A stretch of 53,246 bases of DNA from Thermoplasmata archaeon (GTDB taxonomy: Archaea; Thermoplasmatota; Thermoplasmata; Thermoplasmatales; Thermoplasmataceae), in NCBI GenBank assembly GCA_021835025.1, contig JAKBQY010000026.1, positions 1 through 53,246 of the forward strand, written 5' to 3'. Numbering within the stretch: the first letter of the stretch is position 1; the number at the start of each line of letters is the position of its first letter. Of the stretch, positions 5,901 to 25,848 are shown piece after piece. The translations under genes and the position numbers were made by a program. The notes under the pieces were generated by a model that saw nothing but the letters and a program-made list of their open reading frames with translations, had not been told where the DNA came from and made no database searches.

Positions 5901-6398
5901 TCACTTGTTTTGATTATAAATTTTCCCAAGAGAATTTTTAAGAATGTCATTCAGTAGTGGACAAAAATCCTCCTCGGTATTGTATAAATAATACATTACA
6001 TTGTATTTCTTTTTTATTTTATCAAGTTCTGGGGACCAGAACTCAGATTTATAACGCATATCTGACTTCATTGCTATTATAAATATTTCATTATTAGAAT
6101 TATTCTTGATAAAATTTTCTGCTTCAATAAGGCTTCTCATATTTGTTATATCCGTGGTTAATAAAATGAATGTTGACTTTGAAAGCATTTTATCAGAAAT
6201 AGTTTCAAGCGGCATTTCAAAAAAAAGAAGGCCAATATCATACTCTTCGCCGCCAATTTCAATATTTACCTTCTTCCGGATAAATCCACGAGTGGATAGA
6301 GGTGTACCAGTTTTAAAAGCAGCTGAGGATATCAAAGAACTTTTTCCCGAATTTTTTATCCCTATCACCGTAACTTTCCATATTATTTTATGAATCAT
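5901..6398 (-). CDS. Small Ras/Rab-like P-loop GTPase-related protein
   Basis: A 165-residue P-loop protein. The Walker A/G1 motif GIKNSGKSS is at residues 13-21 and a G4-like motif (AMKSD) near residue 110. The usual G3 motif DxxG appears as FEMP after the second strand, so the switch II Asp and Gly are not conserved. Arg-Gly-Phe near residue 37 may mark switch I. Archaeal small GTPases of this kind are of unknown role; the position nine bases before endA is probably only transcriptional linkage. GTP binding is likely, GTP hydrolysis doubtful. Start ATG 6398. Confidence 0.65.
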   Translation of the reverse strand: MIHKIIWKVTVIGIKNSGKSSLISSAAFKTGTPLSTRGFIRKKVNIEIGGEEYDIGLLFFEMPLETISDKMLSKSTFILLTTDITNMRSLIEAENFIKNNSNNEIFIIAMKSDMRYKSEFWSPELDKIKKKYNVMYYLYNTEEDFCPLLNDILKNSLGKIYNQNK

Positions 6399-6482: not shown

Positions 6483-7697
6483 ATGCTTATGGATTTTGAA
6501 TTTTCTGAGAATTTGAAAAATGTGAAATCGTCTGAAATTAGGGATTTACTTAAATATACACAGATGCCAGGAATAATTTCGTTTGGCGGAGGATTACCAA
6601 ACCCAGAATCGTTCCCATCACAGGCAATTAAGGAAATACTTGACGATATCATAGAAAATTATGCTTCCTCTGCTCTGCAGTACGGGCAAACAGATGGTCT
6701 TCCTTTATTGAAGGAACAGTTGAAATCCTATTTATATAGGGATGAAAACATAGATATTGAAACTGACGAAATGATGGTAACTACTGGATCACAGCAGGCC
6801 CTTTACGCTCTGGCAAAAATATTTGCAAATCCTGGGGATTACGTTATCACGGAGGGACCGACATATGTTGGTATGATATCTGCACTGAATGCAAATAGCG
6901 TAAATTCAGTTTCCGTTCCATTGGATGAAAATGGAATGAAAGTTGATATGCTGGATGATAAAATCAGGGAACTAAAAAATAAAGGTAAAAAACCAAAATT
7001 CATATATACCATACCGACTTTCCAGAACCCTGCAGGTTATACAATGACCCTTGATAGAAGAAAAGAACTTCTTGATGTGGCCAATGATAATTCAATACCT
7101 ATTATTGAAGACAATCCATATGGGGATCTTAGATATTCTGGATCAAAAATACAATCATTAAAAGCCATGGATAATTATGGAATTGTAACCTATCTGGGAA
7201 CACTTTCAAAGGTAATGGCTCCCGGTTTAAGAACGGGATATACATTATCACAACCCGAGGTTTTGCATAAATTTAATTTGCTAAAGCAATCACTGGACCT
7301 GGCAAGTGATTCATTATCGCAGTACATAGCATATGAATACATTAAAAAAGGCATCATATACACTCAGGTTTCAAAAACAATAGAACTTTACAGAAAAAAA
7401 AGGGATATAATGCTTGAATCATTGGATGAGGAAATGCAAAATGCAATATGGTCCAGGCCAGATGGAGGCATGTTTTTATGGTTAAAACTAAATGAAAATA
7501 TTGATACCAAAAAAATGCTTAAAAGGGCAATTGATAATAAAATAGCATATATAACAGGATCAGCATTCTATCAGAATAATCCTGAAATAAATACAATGAG
7601 GCTCAATTTCACTTATTCTTCTGATAGCGATATACAGGAGGGAGTGAAGAGATTGGCAAAAACAATAAAAGAGGAAATTAAAAATAATAAAAACTAA
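6483..7697 (+). CDS. PLP-dependent class I/II aminotransferase, LysN/AroAT-like
   Basis: Transfers amino groups between amino acids and 2-oxo acids using pyridoxal phosphate. The 404-residue protein has the fold type I layout of the 2-aminoadipate (LysN/KAT-II) group: ISFGGGLPNPESFP near residue 35, TTGSQQAL, the PTFQNPAGYTM block, IIEDNPYGDLR with the cofactor Asp, and the Schiff-base Lys in TLSKVMAPGLRTGY at about 243. A C-terminal Arg (MRLNFTYSS) would bind the substrate carboxylate. Enzymes of this group act in lysine synthesis or on aromatic and branched-chain amino acids; other possible lysine-pathway genes in the window favour LysN, but specificity cannot be read from sequence. ATG 6483 and ATG 6489 are both possible starts. 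Confidence 0.85.
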   Translation: MLMDFEFSENLKNVKSSEIRDLLKYTQMPGIISFGGGLPNPESFPSQAIKEILDDIIENYASSALQYGQTDGLPLLKEQLKSYLYRDENIDIETDEMMVTTGSQQALYALAKIFANPGDYVITEGPTYVGMISALNANSVNSVSVPLDENGMKVDMLDDKIRELKNKGKKPKFIYTIPTFQNPAGYTMTLDRRKELLDVANDNSIPIIEDNPYGDLRYSGSKIQSLKAMDNYGIVTYLGTLSKVMAPGLRTGYTLSQPEVLHKFNLLKQSLDLASDSLSQYIAYEYIKKGIIYTQVSKTIELYRKKRDIMLESLDEEMQNAIWSRPDGGMFLWLKLNENIDTKKMLKRAIDNKIAYITGSAFYQNNPEINTMRLNFTYSSDSDIQEGVKRLAKTIKEEIKNNKN

Positions 7698-19550: not shown

Positions 19551-20792
19551 ATGAACACCATAGAAAAAATTTTAAAAAATCATTCAATAGATAAACCACA
19601 GGAAGTTTCACCGGGAGATATCGTAACAGTAAATGTTGATAAGGCCATTATAGTTGATATGGCTGCACTCCATCCGGAGTTTATTAATAATCCCCCAATA
19701 AAACCTTTTGATAAGGATAAAATTGCAATAATATTTGACCATTTTGTCCCAGCTCCAAATATAGAAATTGCCAACAGAGTTGATAAATTAAGGAAACTTG
19801 CCAGATTGTGGAATATAACTGATTTTTATGATATCGGAAGGGGTGGCATATCACACGTTTTATCATCCGAAAAAGGATGGCTGAAACCAGGGAGCATAAT
19901 AGCAAACACAGATTCTCACACAATTTCCACAGGGGCATTTAACGTTCTTGGAAGGGGGCTTGGAACACCTGAATTAATGGGAATAATAGCCACAGGCAAA
20001 ACGTGGTTTATGGTCGGCAATACAATAAACATCAATTTTGAAAATAAATTACCAGAAAAATCATCGGCCAAGGATATCTTCTTTAAAATGGTTGAACAGA
20101 TTGGGGATATCCCCAATGATAACATTGAATTTCATGGAGAAGGAATTAAATATCTGGATATGGATCAAAGGTCTTCCATATCAACCATGTGTGCAGAGAT
20201 GAGTGCGGAATTTGCTATTTTTCCATTTGATGGCATTTTAAGTAATTATTTGGAAGCCCATAGCATTCATAATGTGAATCCAATATATCCTGATAATGAT
20301 GCGATTTATTCCAAGACATACGACATGGATCTTAACGAAATTGAGCCCATGGTCGCTTTTCCTGATAGAATTATAAACAATGTAAAACCCGTATCTGAAA
20401 TAGGAAAAATAGAAATCAATAGCGCCATTGTTGGCTCCTGTGCAAATGGTAGACTGTCAGATTTAAAAGATATTGCAATGGTATTGAAAAATAAAAAAGT
20501 TAATAGAAATGTAAGGTTTATTGTTACGCCAGCAACCATGGATATATATAATGAAGCTTTGAGGCTAGGCTATATATCCGATATAGTTGAATCGGGTGCG
20601 ATAGTTACAAATCCAACGTGCGGAGCATGTCTGGGTGGGCATATGGGAGTTTCGTCGGAAAATGATGTGGTAATAAGTTCAACGACAAGAAACTTCAAGG
20701 GTAGAATGGGCTCTCCAGCTTCAAAGATATATCTCGGGTCATCTAGAACGGTAGCCCTATCCGCTGTAAATGGATATATTTCAGGTGAGTGA
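19551..20792 (+). CDS. 3-isopropylmalate dehydratase / homoaconitase large subunit (LeuC/LysT)
   Basis: Large subunit of an aconitase-family hydro-lyase that isomerises isopropylmalate (leucine) or homocitrate/homoaconitate (lysine). The 413 residues contain the three iron-sulfur cysteines in GSCANGRLSDL (one) and NPTCGACLGGHMG (two), plus DHFVPAPN, NTDSHTISTGAFN and SSTTRNFKGRMG. Length fits the archaeal stand-alone large subunit. The small subunit follows immediately. A homocitrate-synthase-like gene at 25859-26974 and an aminotransferase at 6483 hint at the lysine route, but sequence alone does not separate the two reactions. Confidence 0.9.
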   Translation: MNTIEKILKNHSIDKPQEVSPGDIVTVNVDKAIIVDMAALHPEFINNPPIKPFDKDKIAIIFDHFVPAPNIEIANRVDKLRKLARLWNITDFYDIGRGGISHVLSSEKGWLKPGSIIANTDSHTISTGAFNVLGRGLGTPELMGIIATGKTWFMVGNTININFENKLPEKSSAKDIFFKMVEQIGDIPNDNIEFHGEGIKYLDMDQRSSISTMCAEMSAEFAIFPFDGILSNYLEAHSIHNVNPIYPDNDAIYSKTYDMDLNEIEPMVAFPDRIINNVKPVSEIGKIEINSAIVGSCANGRLSDLKDIAMVLKNKKVNRNVRFIVTPATMDIYNEALRLGYISDIVESGAIVTNPTCGACLGGHMGVSSENDVVISSTTRNFKGRMGSPASKIYLGSSRTVALSAVNGYISGE

Positions 20793-20793
20793 T

Positions 20794-21291
20794 ATGAAGG
20801 AAATTAGAGGAAAAGTGTGGAAATTTGGTGATGACATAAATACGGACTTAATGTATCCTCAGATATGCTATACATTGAAAGAGGAGGAGAAACCATATTA
20901 CGCAATGAGTGCAAACCGGCCAGGATGGTCAAAACTTGTAAAAAAGGGTGATATTATTGTTGCTGGGAAAAATTTTGGTACAGGATCTAGCAGACCCGCA
21001 GCCGACAATCTTAAAAATCTTGGAATAGCATGCGTATTGGCAGAATCGATAAACGGTTTATTTTTAAGAAATTCTGTTAATTCCGGATTATTATCTCTGG
21101 GCGTTCCGGGAATAAGTGGCCGGGTAAATGAGGAGGATATTGTTAAAATCAATATGGAGGATAATACCATTACAATAAATAATGATACAATAAAATTCAC
21201 TCCTCTTCCAGATTTCCTGATGGAAATTATAGAAAATGGGGGGATCATCAATATTTTAAAAAATAAAAAATTGCTCGGAAATCCTTTATAA
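20794..21291 (+). CDS. 3-isopropylmalate dehydratase / homoaconitase small subunit (LeuD/LysU)
   Basis: Swivelling domain of the same hydro-lyase, 165 residues. Motifs: GKVWKFGDDINTDLMYP at the N-terminus, the substrate-discriminating loop YTLKEEEKP, and GKNFGTGSSRPAAD with its conserved Ser and Arg. The frame opens at ATG 20770 inside the large-subunit gene, but the start at ATG 20794 is preferred: GGTGAG precedes it, and homologues begin at this point. It therefore starts two bases after the large-subunit stop. The two form an operon. Confidence 0.9.
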   Translation: MKEIRGKVWKFGDDINTDLMYPQICYTLKEEEKPYYAMSANRPGWSKLVKKGDIIVAGKNFGTGSSRPAADNLKNLGIACVLAESINGLFLRNSVNSGLLSLGVPGISGRVNEEDIVKINMEDNTITINNDTIKFTPLPDFLMEIIENGGIINILKNKKLLGNPL

Positions 21292-21292
21292 A

Positions 21293-22480
21293 TTATTTAT
21301 TTACTGAAGTTTTTGATTTCACTACGGTTTGCAATTGATTCTTTATTAGAAATATCATTGGAATAAAAGCTAATGTTAAAATTCCCATAGCGGACCATGA
21401 AAATGTATAATTATAAAATGTGTATAGATAAGTGAATATTATTGGTATAATGGCTGCTATTATTAGCTGGACAAAATTCACAAAGGATAATGTCATGGAT
21501 ACCAGATCCCTTCTTGCAAGATATCTTATTATGGTATATGTTACTGACATTGCATAAACTGCTAGCATTCCCATTATAATTGCAAGGGCAATAATAACAA
21601 TATAATTGAATGAAAACCCAACAACAATCAATAATATTCCCAATGAAATATTCAGACCCACGAAAACCACAATTTTATGATTTGTTCTGGAATAGTGATA
21701 CCCTCCTATAACACCTCCTAGGAAACCCATTAGAAGAAACAAGGAAGATACTGAACTTGCGAATACTGTGCTGAAATTTATTGATTCAAGATAATAGACA
21801 AAAAATTGGCCAATTATAGTTTCTGATACCATACTTCCAATTCCAATAAATGCAAGAAGAATCACCATTTTTGATGAAAAAACCTTCCTCAGGCTCCTTT
21901 TGATATCAGACCGTTCCGTTTTTATGTTTGGTATATCCCTGAAAAGCAGGTAGAGAATAAAAAATAGTATTATTGTAATTATACCTCCCAGAAGAAATCC
22001 TATGCGATATCCCAGATATATGTCAATGATGGCCCATCCTATCACTCCAATACCTCCTCCAACGTTGAATGCACCGTTATAGATGCCTATATGAAATGAA
22101 TATTTCTCTGCAGGAACTATTGACGCAAGAAGGCTCAGAGCTGGTGAGAAAAAGAGAGCCGCAGAAAGCCCTGCAAAAAATCTTGATATCAGCAATTCGG
22201 TAAAATTTGCCGACAATCCGGATGTAACAGCAAAAATCCCAACAAATAATAGCCCAATTAAAGAAGTTTTCTTATCTCCTATAAATGATGAAAGGTATCC
22301 ACCCATAAGTTGGAAAATTGAGATGCCCATATAAAAGGAAGTTATAAGCGCACCAAGTTGTACAGCTGTTAGTGAAAAATGTGATTTAATATACACAAGA
22401 GCGGGTGCAATATCCATCCAGTTAAGAGCATATACGGCCCTAGCACTATGGATTAGAATAGCTTTTGTTCTATAACTCAC
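21293..22480 (-). CDS. Major facilitator superfamily transporter
   Basis: About 395 residues and twelve hydrophobic segments. Early motif ALNWMDIAPALVYI, loop 2-3 GGYLSSFIGDKKTSLIG (MFS signature A), and ISRFFAGLSAALFFSPALS in helix 4-5, similar to the sugar/organic acid branch of MFS. Substrate unknown. Start is GTG 22480 with a TATA-like ATTATATTTATT about 30 bases upstream; no ATG exists near that point. Convergent with the small hydro-lyase subunit, separated by one base. Confidence 0.8.
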   Translation of the reverse strand: MSYRTKAILIHSARAVYALNWMDIAPALVYIKSHFSLTAVQLGALITSFYMGISIFQLMGGYLSSFIGDKKTSLIGLLFVGIFAVTSGLSANFTELLISRFFAGLSAALFFSPALSLLASIVPAEKYSFHIGIYNGAFNVGGGIGVIGWAIIDIYLGYRIGFLLGGIITIILFFILYLLFRDIPNIKTERSDIKRSLRKVFSSKMVILLAFIGIGSMVSETIIGQFFVYYLESINFSTVFASSVSSLFLLMGFLGGVIGGYHYSRTNHKIVVFVGLNISLGILLIVVGFSFNYIVIIALAIIMGMLAVYAMSVTYTIIRYLARRDLVSMTLSFVNFVQLIIAAIIPIIFTYLYTFYNYTFSWSAMGILTLAFIPMIFLIKNQLQTVVKSKTSVNK

Positions 22481-22822
22481 TGACGCAAATTACTTTAGAG
22501 ATAATAAATATAATGATATTACTAAACTTTATAGAGAAATAATATTTATATAATACATAAATGGCCGGTTTAATGTGCAGTATAACCATCATCCGTGATT
22601 GGACGTTTTGTTCTCCTTTCTTTTACAGTTTCCATAGGTACCTTGGATATATTTTCATGATTTGTTGTGTATCTTCATTTTTAATGTTCTTAATTTTAAT
22701 AAACTTAAAATTGGAAAATTTAACCCATTACTGGCGATTATTGAGCTGATTTTACCTCTTAATACAATTTTATATTTAACCAATAAATCCTTTAATTTTG
22801 TGTATGATAATAAATATCTAGT
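22481..22822. other. Intergenic region before the signal-peptidase-like gene
   Basis: Contains the promoter of the MFS gene on the left. On the plus strand a 62-codon frame (22561-22749) rich in Cys and Trp has no family resemblance and its TATA-like element is too close to its ATG; I do not call it. TTTTATATTTAAC near 22770-22782 could be a promoter for the downstream gene. Confidence 0.4.
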
Positions 22823-23251
22823 ATGTATCCTGTAATAAAGCCCTATGACCTATTCATAATTGATATAAAACCTAATATAACAATTGAAAACGGCGATATC
22901 ATTACATTTAGGGGAAAAGCCATATATTATCCGTTAGCAATGTCAGGCGAAATAACACATAGAGTTATATATAAAAATAGTAAATACATAAAAACCAAGG
23001 GAGATAATGTTTCAAGGCCGGACCCACCCATTGAAAGATCCCAGGTTATAGGAAGAGTTGTTGCTATTATACACAGAGAAAATAGAAATAAATTTGTATG
23101 TGAACCATTATTTCATGAAAAAAGTGAAGTATTAAATGAATTTTTTATGTTGAACCAATTAAAAAGTACTGGTCACGTTTCATATCCTATCAAGGTTGTA
23201 ATTTTTATGTTAATGGGTATTTTCATAAATTTATTCATAGTTTTTATATAA
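22823..23251 (+). CDS. Signal peptidase I-like protein lacking the N-terminal anchor and nucleophile Ser
   Basis: Resembles archaeal/Sec11-type signal peptidases, which cleave secretory signal peptides. The 142 residues show MYPVIKPYDLFII (box B without its Ser), GDIITFRG, ITHRVIYKN (catalytic His) and KTKGDNVSRPDPPI (catalytic Asp), ending in a C-terminal membrane segment (VVIFMLMGIFINLFIVFI). The usual first membrane helix and the Ser of the S-M-x-P motif are not in the frame as started at ATG. Remarkably, the two codons before the ATG read Ser-Ser (TCT AGT), but they follow an ATA codon and consecutive stops. So this is either a decayed copy or uses a non-ATG start. Function uncertain. Confidence 0.6.
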   Translation: MYPVIKPYDLFIIDIKPNITIENGDIITFRGKAIYYPLAMSGEITHRVIYKNSKYIKTKGDNVSRPDPPIERSQVIGRVVAIIHRENRNKFVCEPLFHEKSEVLNEFFMLNQLKSTGHVSYPIKVVIFMLMGIFINLFIVFI

Positions 23252-23434
23252 ACCGAGTTCCGCATGATATGATGCAGCAATATTTCTATAATTATAGTAT
23301 TTTACGTGTTTATGAACATTTTGCCTTTTATATGTATGTGCATATTTTCTGCCCGTTTCTCTTTGTCTCATAATTCACCTTTGTGGTTGTAGGACGCCTG
23401 TGCCATCTACAGAGAATACATTCTCCAATGGATT
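23252..23434 (-). pseudogene. DDE transposase fragment
   Basis: Minus-strand reading gives PLENVFSVDGTGVLQPQR, a stop, then IMRQRETGRKYAHTYKRQ. The VFSVDGTG block resembles the first catalytic Asp region of IS4/IS5-type transposases, and RKYAHTYK the Lys/His-rich strand that follows it. One in-frame stop and missing ends show it is dead. Confidence 0.5.
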
Positions 23435-23460
23435 ATCTCAGGAATAAATAAAAAATAAAA

Positions 23461-24153
23461 TTATGAATAAAATTTCTTCAACGATTCCAAGGTTTTTGGA
23501 AAGTTCTTTAAAAGATTGTCCAACATCTCAACATTTTTATGTGCATTGTAATCAAATCTTTTGAACGTAATTTCATCATTCACCGTATCAAGAAGGGCAT
23601 AAGACGGTCTGTAAATTCCGTCCCTTGGTTGGCCACAACTTCCTGGATTTATAATCTTATTTCTGTAATACATCATAAAATGTGTATGCCCGATCATAAT
23701 ATAATCAAAATTATTGAAGATTTTTTTGTCCCTGTAAACTTTCTCAGCCTCAGAAGCAAACAGATACCCATCATGATTGTTATATGGTGAACCGTGGGTT
23801 AAATAAAATTTTTTATTATCAATTTCAATATTGTAATTGTCCTTAAATGTTTTAATAAAATTCATGTCATTTTTGCCCAATAATTTCAAAGAAATTTCTT
23901 TTCTTGTGGTATCGCTCATTTCCAGCATATCCACGGAACAGTTGCATGGTGTATTGTAAACCACGGCATAATCATGATTTCCCATTATATTTATATCTGA
24001 ATTCTCCCTAAGAAAATCAATGACCTTCTCAGGTTCGGGACCATAATCAACCGCATCTCCCAGAAATAATAGTTTATCAAATCTCTCTTTGTTATACAGT
24101 GTTTTTAAAGCCTCAAAATTTCCATGTATATCTGATATGACCAGAATTTTCAT
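23461..24153 (-). CDS. Calcineurin-like metallophosphoesterase (MJ0936/YfcE group)
   Basis: A 230-residue metal-dependent phosphodiesterase or phosphatase. All metal motifs are present: ISDIHGNFEAL at 6-16, FLGDAVDYGPEP, IMGNHDYAV, LTHGSPYN and GHTHFMMYY, with the closing NPGSCGQPRDG typical of this group. The Cys-containing segment TPCNCSVDM in the middle is unusual but not at the active site. Substrate unknown; relatives hydrolyse cyclic nucleotide-like model substrates. Divergent from the arsR gene. Start ATG 24153. Confidence 0.88.
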   Translation of the reverse strand: MKILVISDIHGNFEALKTLYNKERFDKLLFLGDAVDYGPEPEKVIDFLRENSDINIMGNHDYAVVYNTPCNCSVDMLEMSDTTRKEISLKLLGKNDMNFIKTFKDNYNIEIDNKKFYLTHGSPYNNHDGYLFASEAEKVYRDKKIFNNFDYIMIGHTHFMMYYRNKIINPGSCGQPRDGIYRPSYALLDTVNDEITFKRFDYNAHKNVEMLDNLLKNFPKTLESLKKFYS

Positions 24154-24183
24154 ATTTGCATATTAATATGGTATATATAATAA

Positions 24184-24203
24184 ATATGTAAATTTATTCA
24201 TAT
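24184..24203. promoter_or_regulatory. Inverted repeat, possible ArsR operator
   Basis: ATATG and CATAT separated by ten A/T bases, just upstream of a TATA-like TTTTATATATAAT at 24211-24223 that serves arsR. It lies in the divergent spacer between the phosphoesterase and arsR. Placement fits autorepression, but the base composition makes chance palindromes common. Confidence 0.35.
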
Positions 24204-24238
24204 GAAAATTATTTTATATATAATCACAATAACAAACA

Positions 24239-24568
24239 ATGAATTCACCGTTAAACAAAGTTTCCGATGTAAATATATACAAAATGTTATCCGATGAATC
24301 CAGATTAAAAATAATAAAATTACTATCACAGGGGGAAATGGATGTCTCAACTATTATAGATAAACTTGCGATAAATCAATCGTTGGTATCACATAAACTC
24401 AAGGAACTCCGGGAGAACGGTCTTGTAATAAGTTATAGATCTGGAAAGAATATAATATACAAAATATCTGATGACCTTTTGAAGAATGTGGTTAAAACAG
24501 CAGAAGATGCAGGAAACAGAATTGAAACGATATGCAGATGCGTTGAATGCAATGATGAGAAAATATGA
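24239..24568 (+). CDS. arsR: ArsR/SmtB-family metal(loid)-sensing repressor
   Basis: Winged-helix repressor of 109 residues. The recognition helix region reads LAINQSLVSHKLKELRENGLV, the wing SYRSGKNIIYKI. The C-terminal end has three Cys (99, 101 and 104, in CRCVEC), a plausible thiol site for As(III) or a similar ion, in place of the CxC in helix 3 of classical ArsR. Its last codons overlap the start of the ArsB-type permease gene (ATGA), so they form an operon and the regulator probably controls it. Which ion it senses is inference. Confidence 0.82.
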   Translation: MNSPLNKVSDVNIYKMLSDESRLKIIKLLSQGEMDVSTIIDKLAINQSLVSHKLKELRENGLVISYRSGKNIIYKISDDLLKNVVKTAEDAGNRIETICRCVECNDEKI

Positions 24569-25848
24569 ACTTTTTATTTTACCTTTCGCTGATAATTTTT
24601 GTTGTAACCCTTTTCCTTGTAATTAAAAAACCAAGAAATATTGGTATAGGATATTCAGCTTTATTTGGTGCTCTCCTAACGTTAATTTTTGGCATATCCA
24701 CCTTCGGGGATATTATCACAGTATGGGACATCGTCTGGAATGCTACCTTTACATTTATTTCGGTGATAATAATATCATTGATACTTGATGAGGCAGGTTT
24801 TTTTGAATACATTGCAATAAAAATAGCTATTATGGCAAGGGGAAATGGAACAAGATTATTTATTTTTATAATTCTTCTTGGTGCCCTAATTTCGGCAATA
24901 TTTGCAAATGATGGCACTGCGTTGATACTAACTCCAATAGTCTATGCGGTATTAATAAGAAGCAATTTCAGCAAAAATAAAATATTGCCATTTATCATGG
25001 CAACTGGCTTTATTGCTGACACAGCCAGTATACCATTTATTGTAAGCAATCTTGTCAATTTAATTACTGTTGGGTATTTCAATATCACATTTTTAAGGTA
25101 TACTGAGATTATGATATTCCCCGATATAGTTTCTATTGTATCAAGTACAATAATACTTTTTATCTATTACAGGAAGGATATACAAAAAACATATGGCAGT
25201 ATAAACATAAAGCCGGAAAGTGCCATTAAAGACCATACAATTTTTATCATGGCCTTTCCACTAATTGTGGTGCTTATGTTTTTCTATTTTATCTCTGGAT
25301 TTCTGAGGGTTCCAATATCATTTATAGCCATGCCATTTGCGCTGTTTTTGTATATTGTAGCAAGAATAAATAAAAAAATAGATGCAAATTATATAATAAA
25401 AATAGCTCCATGGCAGATTGTTTTGTTCTCTCTCGGTATGCTGATCATAGTATTTGGTGTTAGCCGTGAGGGGTTAGCTTCAATTTATATCAATGTTTTA
25501 AATGGTATAAATTCACTCGGAGCACCATATTCCATTATATTCTCTGGCTATTTCTTTGCTTTCAATGCAGCAATTATGAATAACCTGCCTTCTGTTATGA
25601 TAAACAATATAGCAATATCCGGGTTAAAAAATCAGGGATTATTGATGTATTCAAACATTATAGGAAATGACATTGGTCCAAAATTTACACCTATTGGTTC
25701 CCTGGCGACACTTTTATGGTTGTATACTCTTGAACGCAAAAACGCAATAAAAATATCATTCAGTTATTATATGAAAACTGGGCTGATCCTGGCCCTGCCT
25801 GTATTATTCCTCACCCTTTTTTCCCTGTATATTGTTTCACTCTTTTGA
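24565..25848 (+). CDS. arsB: ArsB-type arsenite/anion permease
   Basis: A 427-residue inner-membrane transporter with 11-12 hydrophobic segments, of the ArsB/NhaD superfamily. Conserved features: LGALISAIFANDGTALILTP (helix-break Asn-Asp motif), PFIMATGFIADTASIPFIVSN, and near the end NNLPSVMINNIA with GNDIGPKFTPIGSLATLLW. These are the two repeated half-motifs of the family. Coupled to arsR by a four-base overlap. Expected to extrude arsenite, which is relevant to acid-mine habitats; antimonite or another anion is possible. Confidence 0.85.
   Translation: MNFLFYLSLIIFVVTLFLVIKKPRNIGIGYSALFGALLTLIFGISTFGDIITVWDIVWNATFTFISVIIISLILDEAGFFEYIAIKIAIMARGNGTRLFIFIILLGALISAIFANDGTALILTPIVYAVLIRSNFSKNKILPFIMATGFIADTASIPFIVSNLVNLITVGYFNITFLRYTEIMIFPDIVSIVSSTIILFIYYRKDIQKTYGSINIKPESAIKDHTIFIMAFPLIVVLMFFYFISGFLRVPISFIAMPFALFLYIVARINKKIDANYIIKIAPWQIVLFSLGMLIIVFGVSREGLASIYINVLNGINSLGAPYSIIFSGYFFAFNAAIMNNLPSVMINNIAISGLKNQGLLMYSNIIGNDIGPKFTPIGSLATLLWLYTLERKNAIKISFSYYMKTGLILALPVLFLTLFSLYIVSLF

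Follow-up and report, generated by a model that had tools for sequence, protein, structure and literature searches.

A signal peptidase frame that begins past its serine codon is most likely the remnant of a fusion gene broken by deletion in a Thermoplasmataceae archaeon

We analysed a 53,246-nucleotide stretch of DNA from a Thermoplasmata archaeon (the window), which is one contig (C46) of a 1.68 Mb genome, G000, that is assembled in 65 contigs and 96% complete. The feature at its centre is a plus-strand open reading frame, 22823–23251, that encodes 142 amino acids and resembles the core of a signal peptidase (Table 1). The codons leading into it, read directly, are TGA (22805), TAA (22808), TAA (22811), ATA (22814), TCT (22817) and AGT (22820), followed by the ATG (22823). 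An earlier sequence-only reading of this DNA had seen the same arrangement, with the Ser codon AGT placed behind TGA-TAA-TAA-ATA-TCT and directly before the ATG, and this is confirmed; it had also drawn the feature from 22811 to 23251, and the reading frame is real, but 22811 is itself a TAA stop and only 22814–23251 is open in frame. The Ser of the Ser-Met-x-Pro motif lies outside the frame that starts at the ATG and is cut off from upstream sequence by the TAA at 22811. The other catalytic motifs are intact, as had been claimed: numbering the Ser of the AGT as 1, residues His47, Asp62 and Asp68 align with the His, GD and D positions that the relatives conserve. The C-terminal membrane helix also stands, with a hydrophobic segment present and a helix predicted at H121–141, and hydrophobic segments are absent from the N-terminal side. 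In archaeal signal peptidases the Ser, the His and one Asp are reported to be essential (PMC2913515).

The assignment to the signal peptidases comes from several comparisons of unequal strength. The TIGR02228 model (archaeal signal peptidase I) matches the 142-residue frame with E = 7e-10 and 39 bits over model positions 41–120 of 158, leaving the N-terminal quarter of the model uncovered. The curated cut-off of 51.85 bits is not reached, and the intact orthologue from a second genome of the genus, G001, also falls slightly below it at 50.5 bits; though the score is below cut-off, the alignment indicates a homology that is more than chance. Pfam returned only S24, at a sub-threshold 14.5 bits. 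The likeness to archaeal type I signal peptidases (TIGR02228/MEROPS S26B, Sec11 type) lies in the peptidase core with its His, GD and D motifs, and a profile built from the fragment and its relatives found PDB chains of SEC11A and SEC11C with E 0.0013–0.0036. The window frame differs from these enzymes in having no Ser in the ATG frame, no segment preceding that Ser and no N-terminal membrane part. Structure prediction gives the fragment a folded core with a mean pLDDT of 76.8. A Foldseek search with this model gave no match at E ≤ 0.001 and returned LexA/repressor C-domain entries with probability 0.85–0.98 but E > 0.1, amid unrelated entries, and a search of phages and plasmids with the region gave no match.

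Table 1. Features of the signal peptidase locus, in window coordinates
Feature	Position	Strand	Basis
912-base segment absent from the syntenic G001 site, where the same flanking blocks lie ~54 bases apart	22553..23464		block alignment, empty site printed
5′ remnant of the fusion gene, codons ~63–111 of the 548-aa orthologue; contains a 1-base gap; frame stops at 22835	22677..22819	+	ORF list; protein and DNA alignment, 84.7%
Deletion junction, 883 bases missing (orthologue codon 111 to codon 405), with frame change	22819..22820	+	abutting blastn segments, G001 6162 and 7046
AGT, which encoded the catalytic Ser of the ancestral protein (Ser406 in the 548-aa orthologue)	22820..22822	+	alignment of relatives; junction alignment
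Open remnant of the signal peptidase domain, 142 aa; retains the His and Asp motifs and a hydrophobic helix at the C-terminus	22823..23251	+	ORF list, TIGR02228, alignment, structure prediction; 67% aa identity to orthologue C-terminus
Short repeat, 79 bases, 89% to G000:C55:25149–25228 on another contig of the same genome	23357..23435		sequence comparison; transposase reading by eye

Searching 61 genomes with the fragment produced matches in 11, the window genome included. Seven of these 11 lie in open frames of 528–573 aa (G001, G002, G027, G029, G031, G034 and G039), in which the peptidase domain forms the C-terminal quarter, and the remaining four comprise the window, a 345-aa frame in G011, a 279-aa frame in G057 that is ended by the contig edge, and a 284-aa frame of different architecture in G020. 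All ten matched loci other than the window carry Ser-Met-x-Pro in an open frame, which leaves no short Ser-less form among those loci and gives no support to the proposal that the window protein acts without the classical nucleophile. The same-genus (Acidiplasma group) orthologue in G001 is a 548-aa protein with Ser406 in frame, composed of about 400 residues of multi-helix, SpoIIM-like sequence followed by the peptidase domain, with ten hydrophobic segments before that domain and one after it. The full-length SpoIIM-like/signal peptidase fusions of Thermoplasmatales to which we compare the window copy are those of G001 (TL1-3.bin39), Acidiplasma aeolicum VT and Ferroplasma acidarmanus Fer1. 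Amino acid identity to the G001 fusion is 67% over the C-terminal 142 residues and 75% over 44 residues of the upstream remnant; the window copy differs from it in lacking ~295 internal residues and the 5′ end. The predicted structure of the full-length orthologue is of low confidence (mean pLDDT 51.3).

The N-terminal part of the intact fusions, which is gone from the window copy, resembles the SpoIIM family (PF01944). An hhalign comparison with 13 stand-alone SpoIIM proteins gave a probability of 68 and E 4.7e-5, and the PF01944 model matched one fusion directly (G039, E 0.0019, below cut-off), whereas hmmscan of the seven fusion proteins found a SpoIIM match in none (0/7). A single weak match to the family model and a single profile comparison, set against the hmmscan null, suggest that this part is related to SpoIIM. 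Elsewhere in G001 (L030:168–2218, on contig C4), two overlapping genes encode a 359-aa membrane protein, RDD/SpoIIM-like by eye, and a 325-aa signal peptidase; this pair is possibly a split form of the fusion. In a limited check of the literature, which included PMC10354927, PMC8345856, PMC2913515 and PMC4343526, no description of the fusion or of the window remnant was found.

Comparison with the G001 gene locates the break. The G001 protein has two matches in the window genome, both at this locus: residues 405–548 match 22817–23248, and residues 37–129 match 22602–22877 with stops. At the DNA level, blastn aligns window 22677–22819 to G001 gene coordinates 6019–6162 (reversed L026; 84.7% over 144 columns) and window 22820–23251 to coordinates 7046–7477 (reversed L026; 79.6%), so that the two pieces, 883 bases apart in G001, abut in the window. 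The right-hand piece starts exactly at the Ser406 codon and runs to the stop, the left-hand piece ends inside codon 111 (...Phe-Val-Tyr-Asp-Asn-Lys-Tyr-), and the missing length of 883 bases, not divisible by three, shifts the frame at the junction. The TGA-TAA-TAA in front of the Ser codon arise when GAT-AAT-AAA (Asp-Asn-Lys) in the upstream remnant is read in a frame shifted by one. Further upstream, DNA comparison cannot trace the first 62 codons in the window (337 of 500 shuffles reach the score of the 5′ alignment), and the protein match extending back to residue 37 does so across five stops. The truncation suspected from the sequence is thus located as an internal deletion of ~883 bases whose right end sits at the Ser codon. 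The earlier reading had suggested comparing orthologues for a lost membrane helix; the loss is not of one helix but of ~295 internal residues of a fusion protein that has ten hydrophobic segments in its N-terminal part, and the 5′ part of the gene can still be recognised upstream, in a different frame.

An error of assembly or a mixture of strains, with an intact fusion gene still in the genome and the junction a collapse or chimera, appears unlikely. Such an artefact would fit an assembly of this fragmentation and completeness, and the breakpoint carries no long repeat that would account for the deletion; the upstream remnant, however, has an independent 1-base gap in the alignment to G001 and has lost its 5′ end, and the search with the G001 protein found no other piece of the fusion gene elsewhere in the genome. 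Translation from the ATA at 22814, which would include the Ser and had been offered as one possibility, is barely credible: ATA-TCT-AGT is open in frame, but ATA-TCT belongs to the end of the upstream remnant, read in another frame, and the strand that precedes the Ser in the orthologue (E397–401 of the low-confidence model) would still be absent. We rejected both Ser-independent catalysis and an ATA start, for which the relatives give no support, the upstream codons being in the wrong frame of the remnant.

The genomic setting of the fragment differs from that of its intact relative. The flanking blocks are conserved in G001, where C2:49640–51423 matches window 20770–22552 and C2:51478–53859 matches window 23465–25846, and the corresponding blocks in G002 lie ~138 bases apart. 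They carry an MFS gene and a gene that we take to be leuD-like on one side and phosphoesterase, ArsR and ArsB genes on the other (MFS, phosphoesterase, ArsR and ArsB being named from Pfam matches), all neighbours in G001. The intact G001 copy lies elsewhere on the same G001 contig as the empty site, beside an IS66-type transposase fragment (Pfam E 7.7e-6); given this intact copy elsewhere and the empty syntenic site, the gene has changed place within the genus. The short repeat inside the window insert is possibly a transposase fragment or insertion sequence relic, where the transposase reading of 23252–23464 was made by eye and Pfam gave no transposase match for the window fragment. At the insert edge, a perfect TTTATATA (window 22545–22573) stands 28 bases before an ATG at 22573, and the frame that this ATG opens, which ends at 22749, could not at its start be matched to the intact gene; the site may be an orphan, promoter-like one.

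The comparisons show homology to an intact gene, two abutting pieces of it in their original order, a frame change between them and an empty site in a relative. The short open reading frame is very probably a pseudogene, left from the 3′ end of a signal peptidase fusion gene that a deletion has broken, and a broken gene explains the missing active-site Ser most simply, in preference to a Ser-independent enzyme. The ancestor would have been a membrane protein of ~550 residues, with ~400 SpoIIM-related residues carrying some ten hydrophobic segments, a Sec11-type signal peptidase domain on the C-terminal side and one C-terminal helix at the end. An internal deletion, ~883 bases relative to the same-genus copy, would have fused codon 111, out of frame, to the catalytic Ser codon, which would survive only through a breakpoint lying immediately before it, and the stops before the Ser would be the upstream remnant (Val-Tyr-Asp-Asn-Lys-Tyr) in the wrong frame. 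Because the fragment is without the N-terminal membrane part, the segment before the Ser and, if it starts at the ATG, the Ser itself, it should have no peptidase activity. We infer both the order of these events and the absence of a useful translation product from the fragment.

Substitution rates bear on whether the open half has been kept by selection. In the comparison with G001, dS, dN and dN/dS are 0.54, 0.18 and 0.33 for the open part and 0.39, 0.13 and 0.33 for the dead upstream remnant, the latter an imprecise estimate from 41 codons only; five neighbouring genes and a stand-alone spoIIM gene give dN/dS 0.05–0.09. Two other pairs of the fusion family, one of which includes the truncated G011 copy, range from 0.18 to 0.44 depending on the part, and the family therefore evolves fast anyway. 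A relative-rate test showed no clear acceleration on the window branch, with 5–8 window-unique and 2–6 G001-unique changes across eight outgroup comparisons. These rates give no indication that the open half is more constrained than the dead half, and together they suggest that most of the divergence predates the deletion and that the deletion is young on that scale. The description of the truncation as recent would hold in this relative sense only, from the same constraint signature in both halves.

Some features speak against a dead gene: the 142-codon frame is fully open, all 22 of the 22 sites common to at least six of the eight outgroup rows are unchanged, dN/dS is inside the family range, and decay of this half, though possible, is not visible. 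The open frame and the unchanged residues would also suit translation of the frame from 22823, by a leaderless or internal start, into a protein with a Ser-independent function such as a membrane-anchored binding or regulatory domain; the predicted folded core, the weak LexA-like matches and the status of the locus as the sole credible S26-like one in the genome point the same way. We nevertheless consider such a protein highly improbable, since the constraint is no higher than in the dead upstream half, the membrane part found ahead of the domain in intact relatives is missing, and the sequence upstream of the ATG is ordinary, with a TATA-like score of 6 of 8 that is reached by ~35% of the ATGs scanned on the plus strand.

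Loss of the N-terminal side is not unique to the window copy and, from sequence comparison, appears also in G011 and at L069. In G011, which consists of a single contig and shares its genus with G027 (Ferroplasma acidarmanus), the fusion gene is without its first 178 residues, and the remaining part begins ~25 bases after a thiolase frame. MAG TL1-4.bin50 (L069:1661–6432) carries two copies on opposite strands, one full length and one N-terminally truncated; the truncated copy starts at about residue 278 behind a frame that looks transposase-like by eye (L069:4430–5439), for which Pfam gave no significant transposase match.

The fragment is the one credible S26-like locus found in this genome, and complete loss of the peptidase would be unexpected if the organism depends on a type I signal peptidase. 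Of 41 related genomes, 34 yielded the S26B enzyme that is usual in Thermoplasmatales; it was found neither in the three genomes of the window genus (G000, G001 and G002; 0/3) nor in G014. A 10-sequence S26B profile found none in G000 or G001 at E ≤ 1, and in G002 found only a match at E 0.29 inside the fusion gene. The sequence-only reading had called for a search for a second full-length signal peptidase; profile and sequence searches of the 96% complete window genome (PF00717, TIGR02228, PF10502, the 399-aa A. aeolicum enzyme and a mixed 8-sequence profile) yielded no further credible S26 locus, and the missing part of the genome may hold another S26 gene. A second S26 match, on G000:C9 (PF10502, E 0.13), was rejected as the strand opposite an open reading frame that is presumably aldehyde-dehydrogenase-like. 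It is very unlikely that the fragment is still made and kept, as a non-catalytic S26 protein or in an organism with no recognisable type I signal peptidase; if true, the genome would retain only a Ser-less, N-terminally stripped S26 domain, in a genus with no usual S26B enzyme found in three of three genomes.

Reading the frame as the remnant of a broken gene removes a false lead, that of a signal peptidase without a nucleophile, and puts in its place the commonplace decay of a gene through deletion. The analysis also brings out a SpoIIM-like/Sec11-type fusion in Thermoplasmatales whose N-terminal side appears to have been lost more than once. The apparent absence of the usual S26B enzyme from three Acidiplasma-group genomes raises the more useful question of which enzyme removes signal peptides there.
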